The position numbers were made by a program, and so were the translations under genes. A stretch of 36,511 nucleotides of DNA from Deltaproteobacteria bacterium. GTDB taxonomy: Bacteria > Myxococcota_A > Polyangia > Polyangiales > Houyiibacteriaceae. Positions 136 through 9,841 of this stretch are shown in pieces. Location of the stretch: positions 1-36,511 of the forward strand of contig SHLP01000024.1 in assembly GCA_004283055.1 (NCBI GenBank), given 5' to 3'. The notes beneath the pieces are model-generated. The model had not been told where the DNA came from, did no database searches, and was given only the letters and a program-made list of their open reading frames with translations. Every line of letters starts with the position of its first letter. Positions within the stretch are counted from its first letter, which is position 1.

Positions 136-1044
136 ATGACTCAGCCCCGGCTCGTGCTCCCCGGCGACACCGTGATGGTCACCCGGCGCACCCTTCGCCG
201 TCACCACCTGTTTCGCCCCGACCCTGCCATCCGTCAGCTCTACCTCTACACCTTGGCCGTGTGCGCCCGACAGTTCGGCATCCTCGTGCACGCGGTCACG
301 CTCATGTCGACGCACGAGCACCTGGTCGTCACCGACCCCACGCGGCGCCTCCCCGATTTCTTGCGCGACCTTCACCGGCTCGTCTCCCTCGGTGCCAAAG
401 TGCTTCGCAAGTGGGAGGGACCCATCTGGGACCACGAAAAGAGCTCCGTCGTGCGACTGATGACCGAGCAGGCGATGATTGAAAAGCTCGCCTATGTGGC
501 GGTCAATCCGGTCAAAGCCGGCCTGGTGGCCCGCGCCCGGGACTGGCCCGGGGTCACGGTGCTCCCGCATGAACTCGGGCGGCGCACGTTGGTCATCGAG
601 CGCCCTGCAGTCTTCTTCAGACCGGACAACCGGAAGTGGCCCGACACCGTTGAGCTCACCCTCACCTTGCCGCCCCCGCTCGAACAGACGCATCCCGCCC
701 AAGCGGTGCGAGAGGCGGTGAAGGAAGAACTCGAGCACCAGGAGCGGCAGGCCCGAGCCGAAGTTAAGGCGCGTGGCTGGCGCATCCTTGGTGCAGAGCG
801 CGTGCGGCGGCTTTCCCCCTACCGACGCGCCACGAGCTTTGAGCTGCTCCGCAGTCGAAATCCGACGTTTGCGGTCGGACGGGGGCAGCGGAAAGCGTTC
901 TTTCAAGCCGTAGCAGAGCTTCGGGCATTTCGACGGGCCTACCGCCTAGCGCTCGAGGATTGGCGTGCGGGGCTCCGCAGTGTCGTGTTCCCGCAAGGCA
1001 CCTGGTGGATGTGCCGGGCGCACGGCGCCGTCGGACAGACGTAG
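136..1044 (+). CDS. REP-associated tyrosine (Y1/HUH, IS200-like) transposase
   Basis: The 302-residue protein belongs to the Y1 transposase family (RAYT/TnpA_REP). The HUH metal-binding motif is STHEHLVV (His60, His62). The segment YVAVNPVKAGLV (from Tyr120) matches the conserved YIxxNPVxxGLV block carrying the likely catalytic tyrosine. Family members nick and join single-stranded DNA at REP hairpins, and REP-like repeats lie 90 bases upstream, which fits. The domain occupies about the first 145 residues. The rest is a basic, Arg-rich extension with no domain I recognise. The start is the first ATG; no clear Shine-Dalgarno is visible. No second set of terminal repeats is seen downstream, so this looks like a single-copy domesticated RAYT rather than a complete insertion sequence. 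Confidence 0.8.
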   Translation: MTQPRLVLPGDTVMVTRRTLRRHHLFRPDPAIRQLYLYTLAVCARQFGILVHAVTLMSTHEHLVVTDPTRRLPDFLRDLHRLVSLGAKVLRKWEGPIWDHEKSSVVRLMTEQAMIEKLAYVAVNPVKAGLVARARDWPGVTVLPHELGRRTLVIERPAVFFRPDNRKWPDTVELTLTLPPPLEQTHPAQAVREAVKEELEHQERQARAEVKARGWRILGAERVRRLSPYRRATSFELLRSRNPTFAVGRGQRKAFFQAVAELRAFRRAYRLALEDWRAGLRSVVFPQGTWWMCRAHGAVGQT

Positions 1045-4284: not shown

Positions 4285-4320
4285 AATGCCGATCCGTTAC
4301 GGGTGGAACGGATCGGCATT
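4285..4320. terminator. perfect 14-bp inverted repeat, probable transcription terminator
   Basis: AATGCCGATCCGTT (4285-4298) and AACGGATCGGCATT (4307-4320) are exact complements around an 8-base loop. There is no T-run on the plus side; the minus side has GGGTTTGTC. It sits after the small membrane gene and directly abuts repeat copy 1, so it could be a terminator or a structural part of that repeat. Copy 2 of the repeat has no such hairpin in front of it. Confidence 0.5.
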
Positions 4321-4411
4321 GAATTCAAAGGCCCTGTCTGCCCTGCGCCCAACGCGACATAACGAGCTAGTTCTGCGCAATTCCGTTCTAAGAGTGGTCC
4401 CCAAGGGCTAG
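4320..4411 (+). repeat. intergenic repeat family, copy 1
   Basis: Copy 1 begins TGAATTCAAAGGCCCT, has the core ACGCGACATAACGA (GACATAAC at 4356) and ends CCAAGGGCTAG (GGGCTA at 4405). Over the first 44 bases it aligns without gaps to copy 2 (8413), with 36 identical positions by my hand alignment. The core-to-GGGCTA distance is 49 bases, against 48 in copies 2 and 4. The end abuts the relic of a peptidoglycan-binding gene. All copies face the same way. Confidence 0.6.
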
Positions 4412-4657
4412 GAGGCATTGCAAGAGGCCCTCGACATTTGCGGGTAGAAGCCCGGGAAGCACGACGGAATGATGGGCAAGCGGACGCGGGGTGCGATTCG
4501 CGACTTCCAGCAGGATGCTGGCGTCGATGTCGATGGCGACGTCGGTCCGCAGACCCGGGGAGCGCTCGCACAGAGGCTCAGCGAAGTCTCGGTTCGCGCG
4601 CAGCACCTCGCCGGCTTCTTCCAGGGCGGCGGCCAAAGCGTCGAAGACGAGCTCTGA
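4412..4657 (+). pseudogene. fragment of a peptidoglycan-binding (PG_binding_1) domain gene with an in-frame stop
   Basis: One frame reads EALQEALDICG, a TAG stop at 4445-4447, KPGKHDGMMGKRTRGAIRDF, then QQDAGVDVDGDVGPQTRGAL and a short tail to the stop at 4657. The motif DGxxGxxTRxAIxxFQ followed by VDGxVGxxT is diagnostic of the PG_binding_1 fold that holds enzymes to the cell wall. The TAG interrupts the domain, and another stop at 4409-4411 closes the frame upstream exactly at the end of repeat copy 1. Translation from the ATG at 4469 would give only 62 residues with half the first helix missing. It is best read as the C-terminal remnant of a larger gene whose 5' part was lost at the repeat boundary. 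Confidence 0.6.
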
Positions 4658-4675
4658 ACCGTACCGCACAGCCGC

Positions 4676-6706
4676 TCAAGGCTGCAGGTGTCGCTCGAAG
4701 AACTCCGCGAGCTTGGTGAAGAAGTGCGCCAAGTTCCTGTCGTCGAGGAATACGTGGGGCTCGTCGTCGTAGATGTAGAGCTCGACGGGCACGTCGTGCT
4801 TCCTGAGCGCCCGGGCCATGTTCTTTGAATGCTCGACACGGACGTTCCAATCGCGCGTGCCATGTCCTAGGAGCACGGGGACGCGAATCTCGTCCACGTT
4901 TTCGACGGGTGAAGCGGCGGCTAGCTTCTTCTTGTCGGTGCGCCGATTCCCCACGAGAAGCCTCATCATGTCGTCGTGCCTCAGCGCCTGACCGACGTGG
5001 GACATGAACAACCGAACGTCGGTGACGCCCGCAAGGCTCGCGCCCGCTTTGTAGAGCTCCGGCGTCGATACGAGACCTTGCAGCGCCGCGTAGCCCCCGA
5101 AGCTCATTCCAAAGATCCCGATGCGCTCGGGGTCCGCCATCCCTCGTTGGATCAGCCAGCGGACCCCGTCGGTGATGTCGTTTTGCATCCCAAGGCCCCA
5201 CTGCCCGTAGCCTGCCTCCCGGAACTCGGTTCCGTAACCGGTGGACCCTCGGAAGTTGGGCTGAAACACGGCGAAGCCACGACTGGCGAGGAACTGGACC
5301 ACCGGGTCCCATCCCCACACATCGCGCGCCCAGGGGCCGCCGTGAGGGAGGACGATCGTTGCGACCGGGCCGGCGGGCGCGTCGACGGGCCGGGTCCAGT
5401 AGCCGCGAATCGTTAGACCATCCCTGGACCGGTATTCGATCGGCTGCATCGCTGACATCCGCGTGTCGATCAGATCTGGATAGGCCTGAAGCAAGAGGCT
5501 GAGGTTTGCCCCGTCGAAGAGGTAGTATTCGGGGGGCGCCACGTCCGACCAGGAGCGGACGAGCATTCGTGACTCGTCTCGATTGAAATCGGCGAAGCGA
5601 TTGACGCGATTGGGAAGCGCTTCGTCGACTCGCGCCTGAAGCTTCTCGAGCTTTGCGTCTAAATAGACGACCTCCGGCCGTTCGAACATCAGCGAAACGT
5701 AGAGGGGCCGGCCGTCGAGCTGCGAGACCACCACGTCCGTGACGTCCACGACCGGGTGCTCGAACCGGATATCTGCGAATTCGTTTTTGGCTAGATCGAA
5801 AACGCCGATCGCGTCTCGATCCCCGTCCGGCGACCCGAAGACGACGAACAAGCGCTCGGGGTCGGGCGTGAACTCGGCAAAGGTGAAGCCGACCTCGTTT
5901 AACGGATTCCAGCGAACGACGTCTCGAAACTCCTCGTCCGGCGTGGAGCGTGCTGCGAATACGACGAACAGCTTGTCGTCTCGCATCGTGCCGCGTGGCT
6001 TTCCAAAGCCAAGTGCCGCGCGGACGCGCCCCTGGTGATCGGCGTACCACTCGGATATGCCCCATATCGGCTCTTGCACGACCCGATAGGCCCCTGTCCA
6101 AACGTTGACGCGGACCACCGTGGGGTAGATCTCCCCCGCCATGATGACACCGACGAGCAGGTGCCGCGGATCGTCCGGCAGCCAATTGATGACGTCGCCT
6201 TGATTGTAGATCTGGGTCGACTGGTCCCAACTCTTGGCAAGGTGCCGGACGTTCCCTTGGAGGTCGGCGGAGAACAAGCGATCCCGCCGCGAGTGATTGG
6301 TCGACAGGCGTAGCGGCTCCTCGACGACCATCACGACGCGATCGTCGGCGGGCCAGCCGATGCGCGAAATCGTCATCGCCTCCCCGTTCTTGTCGCGGAC
6401 GATCTCAGCGAGCGCCTTGAGCCGACCTCCCATCGTCTGGCGGACGAGCAGCACCTCGCTGTCTGCCCGCGAGGAGACACCGGCGATGTGCTCGCCATCG
6501 GGGGAGAGGCTGAGCTCCTCGACCAAGGGGTGGTTGAAGAACGCGAGCGCAGAGGGCCGAGCGGTGGCCGAGGACGATGAATGGCTCGGCAGAGCGTCGA
6601 GCCGGACGGATTTCGGACCGCAGCCGGCGCCAATCAGAGCCAAGAGCGCCGCAAGGGCGAATCCGCGTTTCACGAGCGCAGCGCTTCCCCGGGCTCCGTC
6701 TGGCAT
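4676..6706 (-). CDS. S9-family prolyl-oligopeptidase-like serine peptidase, lipoprotein
   Basis: The 676-residue protein (start at 6706) begins with a lipoprotein signal: VKRG, a hydrophobic stretch, then the lipobox LIGAGC. It is therefore probably anchored in the periplasm or outer membrane. A beta-propeller-like N-terminal part (repeated D/S-P-D-G-type turns such as LSPDGEHIAG) is followed by the C-terminal alpha/beta-hydrolase peptidase domain. That domain has PHGGPWARDVWGWD, the nucleophile elbow GMSFGG (Ser535), GHGTRDW (Asp619) and EPHVF (His651). This is the S9 triad order, and family members cleave short peptides. A longer frame reaches 6865, but the lipoprotein signal decides for 6706; a GTG at VKRG is a weaker alternative. 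The gene lies between two gene remnants and has no partners in operon. Confidence 0.88.
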   Translation of the reverse strand: MPDGARGSAALVKRGFALAALLALIGAGCGPKSVRLDALPSHSSSSATARPSALAFFNHPLVEELSLSPDGEHIAGVSSRADSEVLLVRQTMGGRLKALAEIVRDKNGEAMTISRIGWPADDRVVMVVEEPLRLSTNHSRRDRLFSADLQGNVRHLAKSWDQSTQIYNQGDVINWLPDDPRHLLVGVIMAGEIYPTVVRVNVWTGAYRVVQEPIWGISEWYADHQGRVRAALGFGKPRGTMRDDKLFVVFAARSTPDEEFRDVVRWNPLNEVGFTFAEFTPDPERLFVVFGSPDGDRDAIGVFDLAKNEFADIRFEHPVVDVTDVVVSQLDGRPLYVSLMFERPEVVYLDAKLEKLQARVDEALPNRVNRFADFNRDESRMLVRSWSDVAPPEYYLFDGANLSLLLQAYPDLIDTRMSAMQPIEYRSRDGLTIRGYWTRPVDAPAGPVATIVLPHGGPWARDVWGWDPVVQFLASRGFAVFQPNFRGSTGYGTEFREAGYGQWGLGMQNDITDGVRWLIQRGMADPERIGIFGMSFGGYAALQGLVSTPELYKAGASLAGVTDVRLFMSHVGQALRHDDMMRLLVGNRRTDKKKLAAASPVENVDEIRVPVLLGHGTRDWNVRVEHSKNMARALRKHDVPVELYIYDDEPHVFLDDRNLAHFFTKLAEFFERHLQP

Positions 6707-6770
6707 CGCCGACACTCTGCCGACGACACCCGCTTGCTGTCCAGACCAAAAACGACGGACACTTCGCCCC

Positions 6771-7199
6771 TCAGGGATGCAGGACGCAGCCGCCGACGAA
6801 GCGGCTTTCCCACTTCGCCTGAAGCGCCTCGACGTAGTCATCGATGCTGTAGACGGCGCCGACATGGGGTCGCAGTCGCCCGTCGACGATGCGCTCGAGG
6901 ATCCAGCTCAGACGAATCGGTCCCAGGGCCGGGTCGTGCTTCAGTGAAATCACCGCCGGACAGCCGAGCACGTCGAGCCCCTTCATCTGAATTAGATTCG
7001 TTGGAAGCATGTTGGCGTTGGGCGCACCGCCCCGCCCTTTGCCGCCGGCAACGAACGGCGTTGCCGACCAACCCACGATGCAGAACCGCCCACCAAAGCG
7101 CATGCTGTGGATGCTCTCAATCGAGATCGCCCCGCCGACCCCGTCCCACACGACGTGCACGGCTTTGGCGTTGGTGAGCTCCTTTACCTCGGCGCTGAA
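6771..7199 (-). pseudogene. N-terminally truncated zinc/quinone-type MDR alcohol dehydrogenase
   Basis: The visible part reads FSAEVKELTNAKAVHVVWDG, VGG, then SIHSMRFGGRFCIVGW, a central NLIQMKGLDVLGC segment and the C-terminal VYSIDDYVEALQA. This is the second half of the medium-chain dehydrogenase/reductase fold (end of the Rossmann nucleotide-binding domain plus the C-terminal return strand). About 180-200 N-terminal residues expected for the family, including the catalytic domain and the GxGxxG site, are missing. Upstream the frame loses similarity and meets a TGA at 7230-7232. An internal ATG at 7160 would give only 129 residues. It ends 64 bases before the S9 peptidase start. Probably a non-functional remnant. 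Confidence 0.65.
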
Positions 7200-7345
7200 C
7201 CGCCACCCAGCGGCCCTGTGCCGCCCGGTTCACACCCGTGTGGCCTTCTAACGTCACAGAATCATGGACCGCATGCACTTCTGCACCGTTTCACGCTGGC
7301 ACATGTCTTGCAACCTTTGCGGGCAACCTCTGCAAGGAGCTTGTC

Positions 7346-8392
7346 ATGCTCAACATTTGGACACGAAGCGCGTCACTTTTCATTCTTGCGCTGCTGGCGT
7401 CTGGCTGCCTCGACTTCAGCTTCGGCTCCGACAGCACCGAGGTCAAAGGCTGCAGCGTTGCCACGCCCCATTCGGTGGCCGACGATCTTCAGTCCCGATA
7501 CGCCCTCGGATCGCACACGACCTTGTACCTCTCCGACTTGGACAATCCCCAAGTCACGTCGAGCGATTCCGAAATCGTAGCCGTTGGCCCGATCGAGGAC
7601 GACGAAACGGACGAGTACGGGGACAAGCTCGTCGAGCTCAGCTTCGTTGGGATTGGTACGGCTGTCCTCACCATCAGTGAAGCCGGCGAATCATTGCCCG
7701 CTGACGTACCCATCGAGGTCGCAGCGTTCGAGCGCTTCGAAGTCGTTCTTCCAACCCTATTCTACCACGACCCCGTCGTACCACTCGCCGGTAGAACGGT
7801 CATCGACCCGGAGTTCGAGGTCATCTATTACGACCGTGGCGGCCGTCTCTACGGCCAAGGTCTCGCGCAGGCCGAATGGGCTTCCGCCGAAGATCTCCCA
7901 GGAGACTCCTTCTTCAACGACACGCTCGACTCCGGCGCCCACCAGGTCGAAGTGCGCGCTGCGCGCCGTGCGTCGGTGATCCCCTTCGCCGCCGTTGCTC
8001 GCGATGAAGTGGTCGCGCTCGAGCTTCTCGAAACCCGACTCGACGAAAGCCTCATCCGACTCGAGCTCGTCGGTCTCACCCAATTGGGCACACCGGTCTG
8101 GAACATCGATCCGATCTTGTTGCCACAAGGTGGTGGCCTGTACTTCGGCTCCTTCGAATACCTCCGCGACCCGGACGCACGACCCGTAGAGCTCACCGCC
8201 ATTTCTTTCGCTGGATCTCCAGTCGGCGCGCTGGACCCCATCGAAACCACGTTCCAGGGGGAGCCGACCCGCGAAGGAAGCTCGCTGTTCAGCTTTGCTT
8301 CTGTCGGCGGCAACGCGCCGCTCATGGCGTTCGTCTCGCTCCTGCTGATGACACTGGCACTCCGTGTCAGCGCGGTGTGGAAGTCGACATGA
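7346..8392 (+). CDS. lipoprotein with Ig-like/beta-rich body and a C-terminal membrane helix
   Basis: The start at 7346 is chosen for AAGGAGC nine bases upstream and because it gives a clean lipoprotein signal ending LLASGC (Cys21). The 348-residue product is acidic and beta-rich. A segment near residue 80-110 (EYGDKLVELSFVGIGTAVLT) resembles bacterial Ig-like (BIG_2-type) strands. The C-terminus (NAPLMAFVSLLLMTLALRVS) is a hydrophobic helix followed by a short basic end, as in surface-sorting tripartite tails, but I see no canonical MYXO-CTERM or LPXTG motif. Exact function unknown; cell-surface localisation is inferred. Confidence 0.7.
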   Translation: MLNIWTRSASLFILALLASGCLDFSFGSDSTEVKGCSVATPHSVADDLQSRYALGSHTTLYLSDLDNPQVTSSDSEIVAVGPIEDDETDEYGDKLVELSFVGIGTAVLTISEAGESLPADVPIEVAAFERFEVVLPTLFYHDPVVPLAGRTVIDPEFEVIYYDRGGRLYGQGLAQAEWASAEDLPGDSFFNDTLDSGAHQVEVRAARRASVIPFAAVARDEVVALELLETRLDESLIRLELVGLTQLGTPVWNIDPILLPQGGGLYFGSFEYLRDPDARPVELTAISFAGSPVGALDPIETTFQGEPTREGSSLFSFASVGGNAPLMAFVSLLLMTLALRVSAVWKST

Positions 8393-8412
8393 CCTGTGGT
8401 TCTGGGAGATCG

Positions 8413-8503
8413 TGAATTCAAAAGCCCTCTCTCTGCGGTGCCCCACGCGACATAACGATTGGTCCTGCTCAATTGCGCTTCCGAAATTGTTCCTATGGGC
8501 TAG
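8413..8503 (+). repeat. intergenic repeat family, copy 2
   Basis: Copy 2 begins TGAATTCAAAAGCCCT, has the core CCCCACGCGACATAACGATT (GACATAAC at 8449) and ends TTCCTATGGGCTAG (GGGCTA at 8497). It has the same 36-base offset from TGAATTC to GACATAAC as copy 1 and the same 48-base core-to-GGGCTA distance as copy 4. It shares a perfect 21-base block (8440-8460) with copy 3. It lies 93 bases upstream of cspA and could include its promoter. Inside it CAATT and AATTG can pair across a 10-base loop. Confidence 0.65.
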
Positions 8504-8595
8504 AAGAGGGACTACCAGGGTCATTGCGACCCTCGCTGCTACGTCGGCGGCGAGCTACTGGGCTCACCGACAATGTCGGTAGGAATGAATACAAC

Positions 8596-8793
8596 ATGGC
8601 TGAAGGTACAATTAAGCGTCTGACGGACCGGGGCTTCGGGTTCATCGAAACCTCTCCGGGCAACGACATCTTTTTCCACATGTCGAACGTCGATGGCGTG
8701 CGATTCGAGGACCTGCGCGAGGGGCAGAAGGTCTCATTCGACGAAGGTCAAGGTCCCAAGGGCCCACGCGCAGAGAACGTCAGACCTCTCTGA
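8596..8793 (+). CDS. cspA: cold-shock protein, CspA family
   Basis: The 65-residue cold-shock domain protein starts MAEGTIKRLTDRGFGFIE. RGFGFI is the RNP1 motif and DIFFHMS the RNP2 motif, used to bind single-stranded RNA/DNA. The length is that of a single-domain CspA-type protein acting as an RNA chaperone. The ATG at 8596 follows a modest site (TAGGA) and gives the conserved N-terminus; a longer upstream frame is not homologous. The gene is flanked by repeat copies 2 and 3, about 380 bases apart, as if carried as a unit. Temperature control is plausible for the family but not shown by the sequence. Confidence 0.93.
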   Translation: MAEGTIKRLTDRGFGFIETSPGNDIFFHMSNVDGVRFEDLREGQKVSFDEGQGPKGPRAENVRPL

Positions 8794-8823
8794 GGCACGG
8801 TTCCGTTCGTACATCGTAGTAGA

Positions 8824-8853
8824 GCCCCACGCGACATAACGATTCGTTCTGCG
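8824..8853 (+). repeat. intergenic repeat family, copy 3 (left half only)
   Basis: Bases 8824-8844 are identical to 8440-8460 of copy 2 (GCCCCACGCGACATAACGAT plus T). Similarity continues weakly through GTTCTGCG. The right half with GGGCTA is missing. It lies between cspA and the PAS gene. Confidence 0.6.
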
Positions 8854-8903
8854 AAGTTCAGGAGCTGAGTGAGCATCCGTTTCACCTCTATCGGCAGCAA
8901 ACT

Positions 8904-9302
8904 CTAGAGGCTGAACGTTTCACGCTGGATCGCGAGCCAGACATTCGTATTTTTGCCCAGCTTTACCGGCACAACGCGCCAATGCATGAGAAAAGGAGTG
9001 CCGTCCTTTTTGTAGTTGATCGCCTTTCCTTCAAATCGACCGCCAGCGCTGAGTGTCTTGGCCAGTCGAGCGATGACCTTTTTGTCTGTGGCTGGCCCCT
9101 GTAAGATCTTCGGCGTCTTTCCCAGCACTTCCGCCGGGCTGTATCCGGTAAGGTTCTTGAAAGCCTTGTTTGCATAAAGAATCTTGGTTCTGGCCGTCGC
9201 GTCCGTTATCAGAACGGAGTCAAAACTATTCTCCGCCAGCGCTTTTAAAGTCTGACTATTCAGATTGGTGTCCTGTAGGACCTTATCGAGTGATTTGATC
9301 AT
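8904..9302 (-). CDS. stand-alone LOV-like PAS domain protein lacking the photoactive cysteine
   Basis: The 132-residue protein is one PAS domain with a short N-cap. YANKAFKNLTGYSPAEVLGK (43-62) and the following KILQGPATD match the LOV subfamily, as does NYKKDGTPF (96-104) and the WRVVPV strand. In light-sensing LOV proteins the loop reads GxNCRFLQ. Here it is GKTPKILQ, with Pro64 in place of the adduct-forming cysteine and Thr63 for asparagine. Classical flavin-cysteinyl photochemistry is therefore not possible. It may still bind flavin or another ligand, or act as a dimerisation module. There is no kinase, HTH or other output domain. AGGAA seven bases upstream supports the start. Base composition looks less GC-rich than the neighbours, which hints at transfer. 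Confidence 0.82.
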   Translation of the reverse strand: MIKSLDKVLQDTNLNSQTLKALAENSFDSVLITDATARTKILYANKAFKNLTGYSPAEVLGKTPKILQGPATDKKVIARLAKTLSAGGRFEGKAINYKKDGTPFLMHWRVVPVKLGKNTNVWLAIQRETFSL

Positions 9303-9371
9303 TTACTATTCCTGCAACGGGTCGGATGTAACGATGATAAGAAACCAACTGTCGGGGAAAGTATCACAGAC

Positions 9372-9425
9372 GTTCGATGAACATTCGAACAAACTCATCA
9401 GCAGGATCGAGCACTGAGCTGTCAA
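9372..9425 (-). promoter_or_regulatory. possible promoter with overlapping palindromic operator for the PAS gene
   Basis: On the minus strand a perfect TTGACA lies at 9420-9425, with only a weak -10 (GCTGAT) 17 bases on. Immediately downstream is the inverted repeat GTTCGA (9372-9377) / TCGAAC (9385-9390), 70-88 bases before the PAS start. The arrangement suits a repressor site near the transcription start. It superficially resembles a LexA-type GAAC/GTTC box but does not match its spacing. Confidence 0.35.
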
Positions 9426-9481
9426 AGTCTGAACGGGCTTATCCGGCTATTTCCCTCATGGCAGTCTCAATCGGACCTCGA

Positions 9482-9604
9482 TCAAAAGAACCGAGACCAC
9501 GCTCCGGCATAGAGAATAGCGCTTGTGCAGAACAGCAATCCAGCCGCGACCGCAGTAGAGAGAGGTTGGCCGCCGAGCATTGCAACGGCTTCTAACGTTC
9601 CCAT
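9482..9604 (-). CDS. possible small membrane protein, 40 residues
   Basis: The frame from ATG at 9604 (or GTG at 9613) reads MGTLEAVAMLGGQPLSTAVA, then a hydrophobic AGLLFCTSAILYAGAWSRFF. It has two hydrophobic stretches separated by a GQPLS turn, the pattern of a tiny membrane protein. The frame stays open upstream into repeat copy 4, so it could be the tail of a longer lost gene. No ribosome-binding site is obvious. I do not recognise a family with any certainty. Confidence 0.35.
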   Translation of the reverse strand: MGTLEAVAMLGGQPLSTAVAAGLLFCTSAILYAGAWSRFF

Positions 9605-9660
9605 ACCAACCACAATATGGCAGGCGCATAGTAACTTTGAACGCCAAATCCGGTTAGCGT

Positions 9661-9722
9661 CCCTAGTGACATAACATCTGGTACCGCGCTATTCGGCGCT
9701 CATCGTCATTCCGATGGGCTAA
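9661..9722 (+). repeat. intergenic repeat family, copy 4
   Basis: GTGACATAAC (GACATAAC at 9668) is followed by CTGGTACCGCGCTATT and ends CATTCCGATGGGCTAA (GGGCTA at 9716). It aligns without gaps to copy 2 across the whole 48-base interval, with conserved blocks GACATAAC, CNATT, ATTCC/TTCC and ATGGGCTA. The left extension TGAATTC seen in copies 1 and 2 is absent. Confidence 0.55.
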
Positions 9723-9841
9723 GATGCACCTCGTGCATGACGATCACGCCGGGCCAGCTGCCGCTTCGCCAGACAGGCTTCGTATCGCCGTCGAGCGTCG
9801 CTCTCGTACACAGCGGAAATTAGGGATCTTCCTTGGGTCAT
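9719..9841 (-). CDS. possible small protein, 40 residues
   Basis: From ATG at 9841 the frame encodes MTQGRSLISAVYESDARRRY followed by EACLAKRQLARRDRHARGAS, a basic amphipathic helix. Its TAG stop overlaps the GGGCTA end of repeat copy 4. I recognise no family. The frame is open further upstream but there runs antisense to better coding sequence. Low support. Confidence 0.25.
   Translation of the reverse strand: MTQGRSLISAVYESDARRRYEACLAKRQLARRDRHARGAS

Follow-up and report, generated by a model that had tools for sequence, protein, structure and literature searches.

A 106-bp intergenic element at joints of unrelated DNA in a genus of uncultured marine-sediment myxobacteria

Element A is a 106-bp, genus-restricted multicopy element that, in the loci examined, has a sharp edge, lies at joints of unrelated DNA and consists of halves that reassort. 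The chimeric joints, sharp edge and reassorting halves are the behavior of a site, and from them we infer enzymatic, site-specific exchange at the element. The explanation towards which we lean, at a little better than an even chance, is that element A is an att-like duplex site for recombination that mobile cassettes carry at their ends.

Anatomy of the element and its copies in the window

The window, by which we mean the whole stretch of DNA analyzed (36,511 bp, 63% G+C), is contig C31 of a 4.3-Mb genome in 293 contigs. A reading of this DNA from its letters alone (the sequence-only reading) had reported four copies of an intergenic repeat facing the same way, and all four are real, on the + strand and far beyond chance (profile E 1.7e-22 to 4.7e-6, with the model seeded with copies 1, 2 and 4, and copy 3 and the partial copy at 1272–1329 lying outside the seeds). 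The positions given for the copies were right, although the full units are longer, at about 4318–4418, 8402–8511 and 9620–9726; a partial copy and a half-element junction had been overlooked. The features are as follows.

1272–1329, + strand: partial element A, right half only (37.8 bits, E 4.3e-11; not a seed)
2327–2383, + strand: half-element junction, the right terminus TGGGCTAAGAGG followed directly by a left half (GCATAG...CCCTGGC)
4318–4418, + strand: copy 1, element A (profile 73.7 bits, E 2.6e-22; model seed)
4356–4363, 4376–4382 and 4405–4410, + strand: GACATAAC, core CGCAATT and GGGCTA of copy 1
8402–8511, + strand: copy 2, element A (profile match 8409–8508, E 4e-19; model seed)
8449–8456 and 8497–8502, + strand: GACATAAC and GGGCTA of copy 2
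8819–8874, + strand: copy 3, A/B hybrid (profile match 8818–8861, E 4.7e-6; not a seed)
8819–8858 and 8859–8874, + strand: family A left part and core, and family B right end CAGGAGCTGAGTGAGC, of copy 3
9620–9726, + strand: copy 4, element A (profile 74.4 bits, E 1.7e-22; model seed)
9668–9675, 9687–9693 and 9716–9721, + strand: GACATAAC, core and GGGCTA of copy 4

Copies 1, 2 and 4 are typical of element A, which has the arrangement GGAGCATAG ... GACATAAC ... CGCAATT ... GGGCTAAGAGAGC, with GGGCTAAG as a further core block. In 116 copies of standard spacing, conservation spans from about -64 (GGAGCATAG) to +41 (GGGCTAAGAGAGC), taking the first base of CGCAATT as zero, and the right edge is sharp, with column information at background from +42. 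Both GACATAAC and GGGCTA are invariant in an alignment of 47 sequences; in the window GACATAAC starts at 4356, 8449, 8833 and 9668, always on the + strand, as are all window copies, partial ones included. The conserved blocks are 7–8 nt long, and there are partial dyads (e.g. GTTCTG-CGCAATT-CAGGAGC). Counted from ACATAAC to GGGCTA, copies 2 and 4 both measure 53 nt and copy 1 measures 54 nt, in agreement with the gapless spacing and one-base offset described before, and the left arm shared by copies 1 and 2 at an identical offset (TGAATTCAAA) and the perfect 21-base block of copies 2 and 3 (GCCCCACGCGACATAACGATT) are likewise present. Each part of the junction at 2327–2383 scores weakly (9.6 bits, E 0.027, and 2.4 bits, E 4.7), but the two are adjacent.

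A related 85-bp element, family B, has the arrangement GCTGATAG..AAACGCCC..TATAAGGCGTTCTGCGCAATTCAGGAGCTGAGTGAGC. Families A and B agree in their left motif and CGCAATT core, and A/B hybrids exist; copy 3, whose right end at 8852–8874 (CGAAGTTCAGGAGCTGAGTGAGC) is family B sequence, is thus more than a truncated element A. A second dispersed repeat lies in the window at 2475–2756, with 77–86% identity to several loci in genomes G006, G017 and G002, some of them near element copies.

Distribution across genomes

The counts of element A rest on genome searches and selected loci in genomes that are all MAGs; in the loci examined there are about 190 distinct copies. The profile search of this genome and its relatives that the sequence-only reading had proposed found further copies: a sequence-only model has matches in 18 of the 19 genomes of the genus (SG8-38-like Myxococcota), with 1–41 in each and none in the other, and 19 matches in the source genome, where a pattern search places copies on three further contigs. 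The pattern ACATAACN{30,55}GGGCTA gives 86 matches in the genus versus 20 for the reversed control; in 19 genomes of other genera it gives a single match, in one genome, which is not above its control. Across the GTDB species genomes (~85,000 species) the exact 21-base pattern is found at 43 loci, each of them in a MAG traceable to this lineage; these MAGs, with SG8_38 and the bin5 chromosome CP070713 among them, are deposited as Myxococcales, Polyangiaceae, Deltaproteobacteria or without a name. Viral contigs have no match to this pattern, and a viral origin of element A was rejected on these zero matches. Judging from these searches, element A is limited to one genus of uncultured marine-sediment myxobacteria; we found no description of it in the open-access literature on this lineage in connection with cassettes, IMEs or ISCR. 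The genus-wide presence, sharp edges and conserved core bear out the earlier impression of a functional-looking element as opposed to decayed debris.

Joints and reassortment of halves

At 13 of the roughly 22 sites where a right flank has homology to element-free DNA, that homology sets in between +37 and +42. No element has both flanks contiguous elsewhere among 237 non-redundant loci (~220 copies), a set chosen for elements or related genes and so biased toward elements, which makes this absence something other than a whole-genome result. Only two alignments span an element, both reflecting partial loss within it, and the 5-kb regions around elements in genomes G016 and G018 match the rest of the genus in scattered fragments only. 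Non-contiguous flanks are what cassette joints would predict, unlike simple insertion. To the right of copy 1 lies a peptidoglycan-binding-like gene (4415–4657) reduced to its 3' part, which lacks the first 8 codons and has an in-frame TAG; native copies of this gene at 7 loci, including G000:C260 in the source genome, run on upstream without element A, and an empty-site search for copy 1 with that upstream part found nothing else in the window.

The two halves of the element differ in how they follow their flanks, as seen in pairs of copies that are few and not independent, several involving the same loci. In pairs with left flanks at least 85% identical (n = 18), the identity of left halves is 0.84 (population 0.66) and that of right halves 0.72 (population 0.68); in pairs with a common right flank (n = 6), it is 0.66 for left halves and 0.78 for right halves, and two of these pairs have right halves 0.95–1.00 identical with unrelated left halves. 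About half of the left-flank pairs break centrally, and the rest at either edge. The left half thus moves together with its left-hand flank and the right half is mostly independent of that flank, so that a good part of the exchange can be assigned to the GACATAAC-CGCAATT block; break points also fall outside the core, so homologous recombination between repeats could give the same picture.

This last point is the substance of an alternative that we consider rather unlikely and yet weighty, namely that element A is a passive, MITE-like dispersed repeat spread in accessory DNA, with joints and mosaic halves arising by ordinary homologous recombination or deletion between copies. Its discrete 106-bp unit with clear edges, its intergenic position (8 of 162 copies overlap a scored ORF) and the several places at which breaks occur inside the unit all agree with such a repeat, as do the many family B copies of 94–98% identity dispersed in G016 and G018 (loci L164 = G018:C17 and L161 = G016:C12), near-identity that suggests recent spread within these two genomes. 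Weighing on the other side are the lack of terminal inverted repeats (there is nothing beyond TAG/CTA at the ends), the lack of a contiguous-flank empty site in the element-biased set of loci, and the tendency of the left half, but not the right, to stay with its flank.

Segments between copies

The window intervals carry, among others, genes for an S9 peptidase, CspA and a PAS-domain protein, and elsewhere in the genus the intervals hold many unrelated genes, roughly one per interval. Relative to the element strand, upstream genes are in the same orientation in 51 cases and opposite in 35, and downstream genes in 34 and 50, respectively. Neighboring copies 0.2–6 kb apart lie mostly on the same strand (45 of 65, versus 20 opposite; p = 0.003). 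The segments of the window discussed here are listed below.

4415–4657, + strand: right flank of copy 1, 3' part of the peptidoglycan-binding-like gene (81–92% to 7 loci)
8515–8796, + strand: cspA segment between copies 2 and 3, leader and cold-shock gene (PF00313; 83–91% to cspA loci of the genus)
8857–9153, no strand assigned: start of the segment between copies 3 and 4 (98% to G006:C168; homology begins within copy 3)
8904–9302, - strand: PAS-domain gene in the segment between copies 3 and 4

The suggestion made earlier that these intervals are cassette-like is strengthened by the chimeric joints and by the segment between copies 3 and 4, the first 297 nt of which are 98% identical to a contig of another species, against a background of 83% for the genome pair. 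The left flank of the copy on G000:C109 is similarly 97–98% identical to a G002 contig (CAMYJN010000163, taken to be G002:C163), also over a background of 83%; the background was measured at the Xer-recombinase locus for both genome pairs. Segments matching another species so far above background appear to have moved recently between species.

Mobility genes near copies

Roughly 20 copies directly follow a gene of the TraI/MobP relaxase family (MobP match to NF041893, 302 bits), in most cases about 30 nt from its stop codon. A TraJ/NikA-like gene, often with an integrase gene, lies upstream of these relaxase-element units, and several loci have the order int - mobC - relaxase - element. Element count correlates with relaxase count over the 19 genomes (rho 0.71), which speaks for reading the element as a recombination site, but just as strongly with genome size (rho 0.73), which speaks against it. 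Several integrase ORFs near copies end in antisense tRNA-Lys or tRNA-Leu sequence (L090:4486-4545, L092:7960-8043), like attachment scars; their own att sites are thus probably those tRNA genes, which weakens the case for their acting on element A.

In 5 of 6 cases examined, the right edge of element A or B adjoins the 3' end of a gene for a transposase like those of ISCR clade Ia (NF052416, 377 bits against a cut-off of 925). Such transposases of Myxococcota include L045:4488-5966 and L161:3431-4906, the 3' end of each at element A or B. A further repeated motif, CGCGCTCAACGCCTTCGGCTTATTCGC, is present upstream of ISCR-like genes at L288, L290, L292 and L311 and recurs at L028 and L048, where it lies to the left of an element copy and near its left end.

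These neighbors raise a second alternative, which we hold to be doubtful though far from negligible: element A could be the ori-like end of an HUH element, at which the ISCR-like transposase or the MobP/TraI-type relaxase nicks the DNA and so moves adjacent sequence by one-ended, rolling-circle transfer. This overlaps with the recombination-site reading and differs from it in enzyme and polarity. Both the relaxase genes ending about 30 nt upstream and the ISCR-like 3' ends exactly at the right edge fit an HUH end, right flanks can start mid-gene (copy 1), and the break between copy 3 and its G006 relative lies beside TCCTG, reminiscent of the RP4 nick sequence, ATCCTG. Nevertheless, most copies have neither a relaxase nor an ISCR gene adjacent, several breaks are near GACATAAC instead of TCCTG, and the ISCR copies abut differing A and B variants, so that the element resembles an IS target more than an IS component.

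Regulatory, RNA and integron readings

Of the three options offered in the sequence-only reading, a recombination site fits best, and a promoter, operator or structured RNA (riboswitch included) we regard as very unlikely. A cis-regulatory role would accord with the intergenic position and conserved spacing, but flanking genes lie on either strand at both sides, the element sits at joints of unrelated DNA, and the window has no Rfam family at gathering score except a tRNA. A structured RNA was rejected, as the RNAalifold consensus of 47 sequences has no substantial helix (5 pairs, -2.6 kcal/mol; a double change at one of the pairs). Folding of individual copies gives nothing remarkable apart from the - strand of copy 4 (z -3.1). 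Mutual-information signals (e.g. columns 87–92) seem to reflect a division into subfamilies; read as pairs, they would leave loops shorter than RNA allows.

That the copies are attC-like sites of a classical integron is exceedingly unlikely: the arrays are cassette-like, with roughly one gene per interval, but the RYYYAAC/GTTRRRY ends and a long imperfect hairpin are absent, genes lie on both strands, and the search for an integron integrase proposed earlier found none above cut-off (TIGR02249) in any of the 19 genomes, the weaker matches being XerC/D-like and phage-type integrases. By the features tested, element A is not of the integron attC family.

Comparison with known systems

Integron arrays nevertheless offer a close likeness, in that segments each end in a related, variable site of ~60–140 bp, mostly in one orientation, with differing genes and apparent interspecies transfer. 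Element A differs in having no IntI over cut-off, R-box consensus or folded-strand hairpin, and in its intervals of 0.3–6 kb with genes on both strands at many places, versus one array beside an integrase.

The REP/RAYT systems are similar in having an intergenic multicopy repeat, and a RAYT-like gene that the genus has in several copies lies near a partial element copy, at window position 136–1044 (+ strand; NF047646, 57.6 bits, where the cut-off is 80); however, element A is 106 bp long with no REP hairpin or conserved fold, and most RAYT-like genes of the genus are not beside copies. With IS91/ISCR elements the likeness lies in the transposase of ISCR clade Ia type found directly at the right edge of the element, and ISCRs are known to move neighboring DNA; but most copies have no transposase beside them and the element varies independently of it. 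IMEs, whose accretion is also a subject of the review PMC5704250, resemble these loci in their tyrosine integrase, TraL/TraJ-like and MobP relaxase genes, the relaxase often ending ~30 nt before the site; they differ in that the integrases near element A appear to use tRNA genes, and most sites carry ordinary genes and no mobility genes.

Proposed mechanism and significance

Under the recombination-site explanation, a 106-bp double-stranded attachment-type site would terminate mobile gene segments in the accessory islands of the genus, each segment bearing a site at one end and segments being strung into arrays mostly in direct orientation. Two sites would recombine within the stretch that runs from the invariant GACATAAC through CGCAATT, leading to insertion, removal or exchange of the intervening DNA. 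The candidate enzymes are a tyrosine recombinase, which the conserved 7–8 nt blocks and partial dyads slightly favor, and an HUH nuclease, in the form of the ISCR-like transposase or the MobP relaxase encoded directly beside copies. Besides the sharp edge, chimeric joints and reassorting halves, this explanation has in its favor the close cross-species matches of segments, the excess of same-strand neighbors and the mobility genes next to copies. Counted against it, these genomes, all of them MAGs, showed neither circular intermediates nor empty sites.

A more specific proposal, possible but to be held tentatively, is a genus-specific, integron-like cassette exchange using the duplex 106-bp site and its sister 85-bp site, with an integrase or relaxase unrelated to IntI; it would take up genes in either orientation, build arrays of them and carry them between species. 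If true, gene-cassette capture and array building would have evolved outside integrons in a sediment lineage, and the ~190 natural variant sites would be available for deriving rules of exchange. It may also explain the frequent small-contig breaks of MAGs of this genus near element copies.
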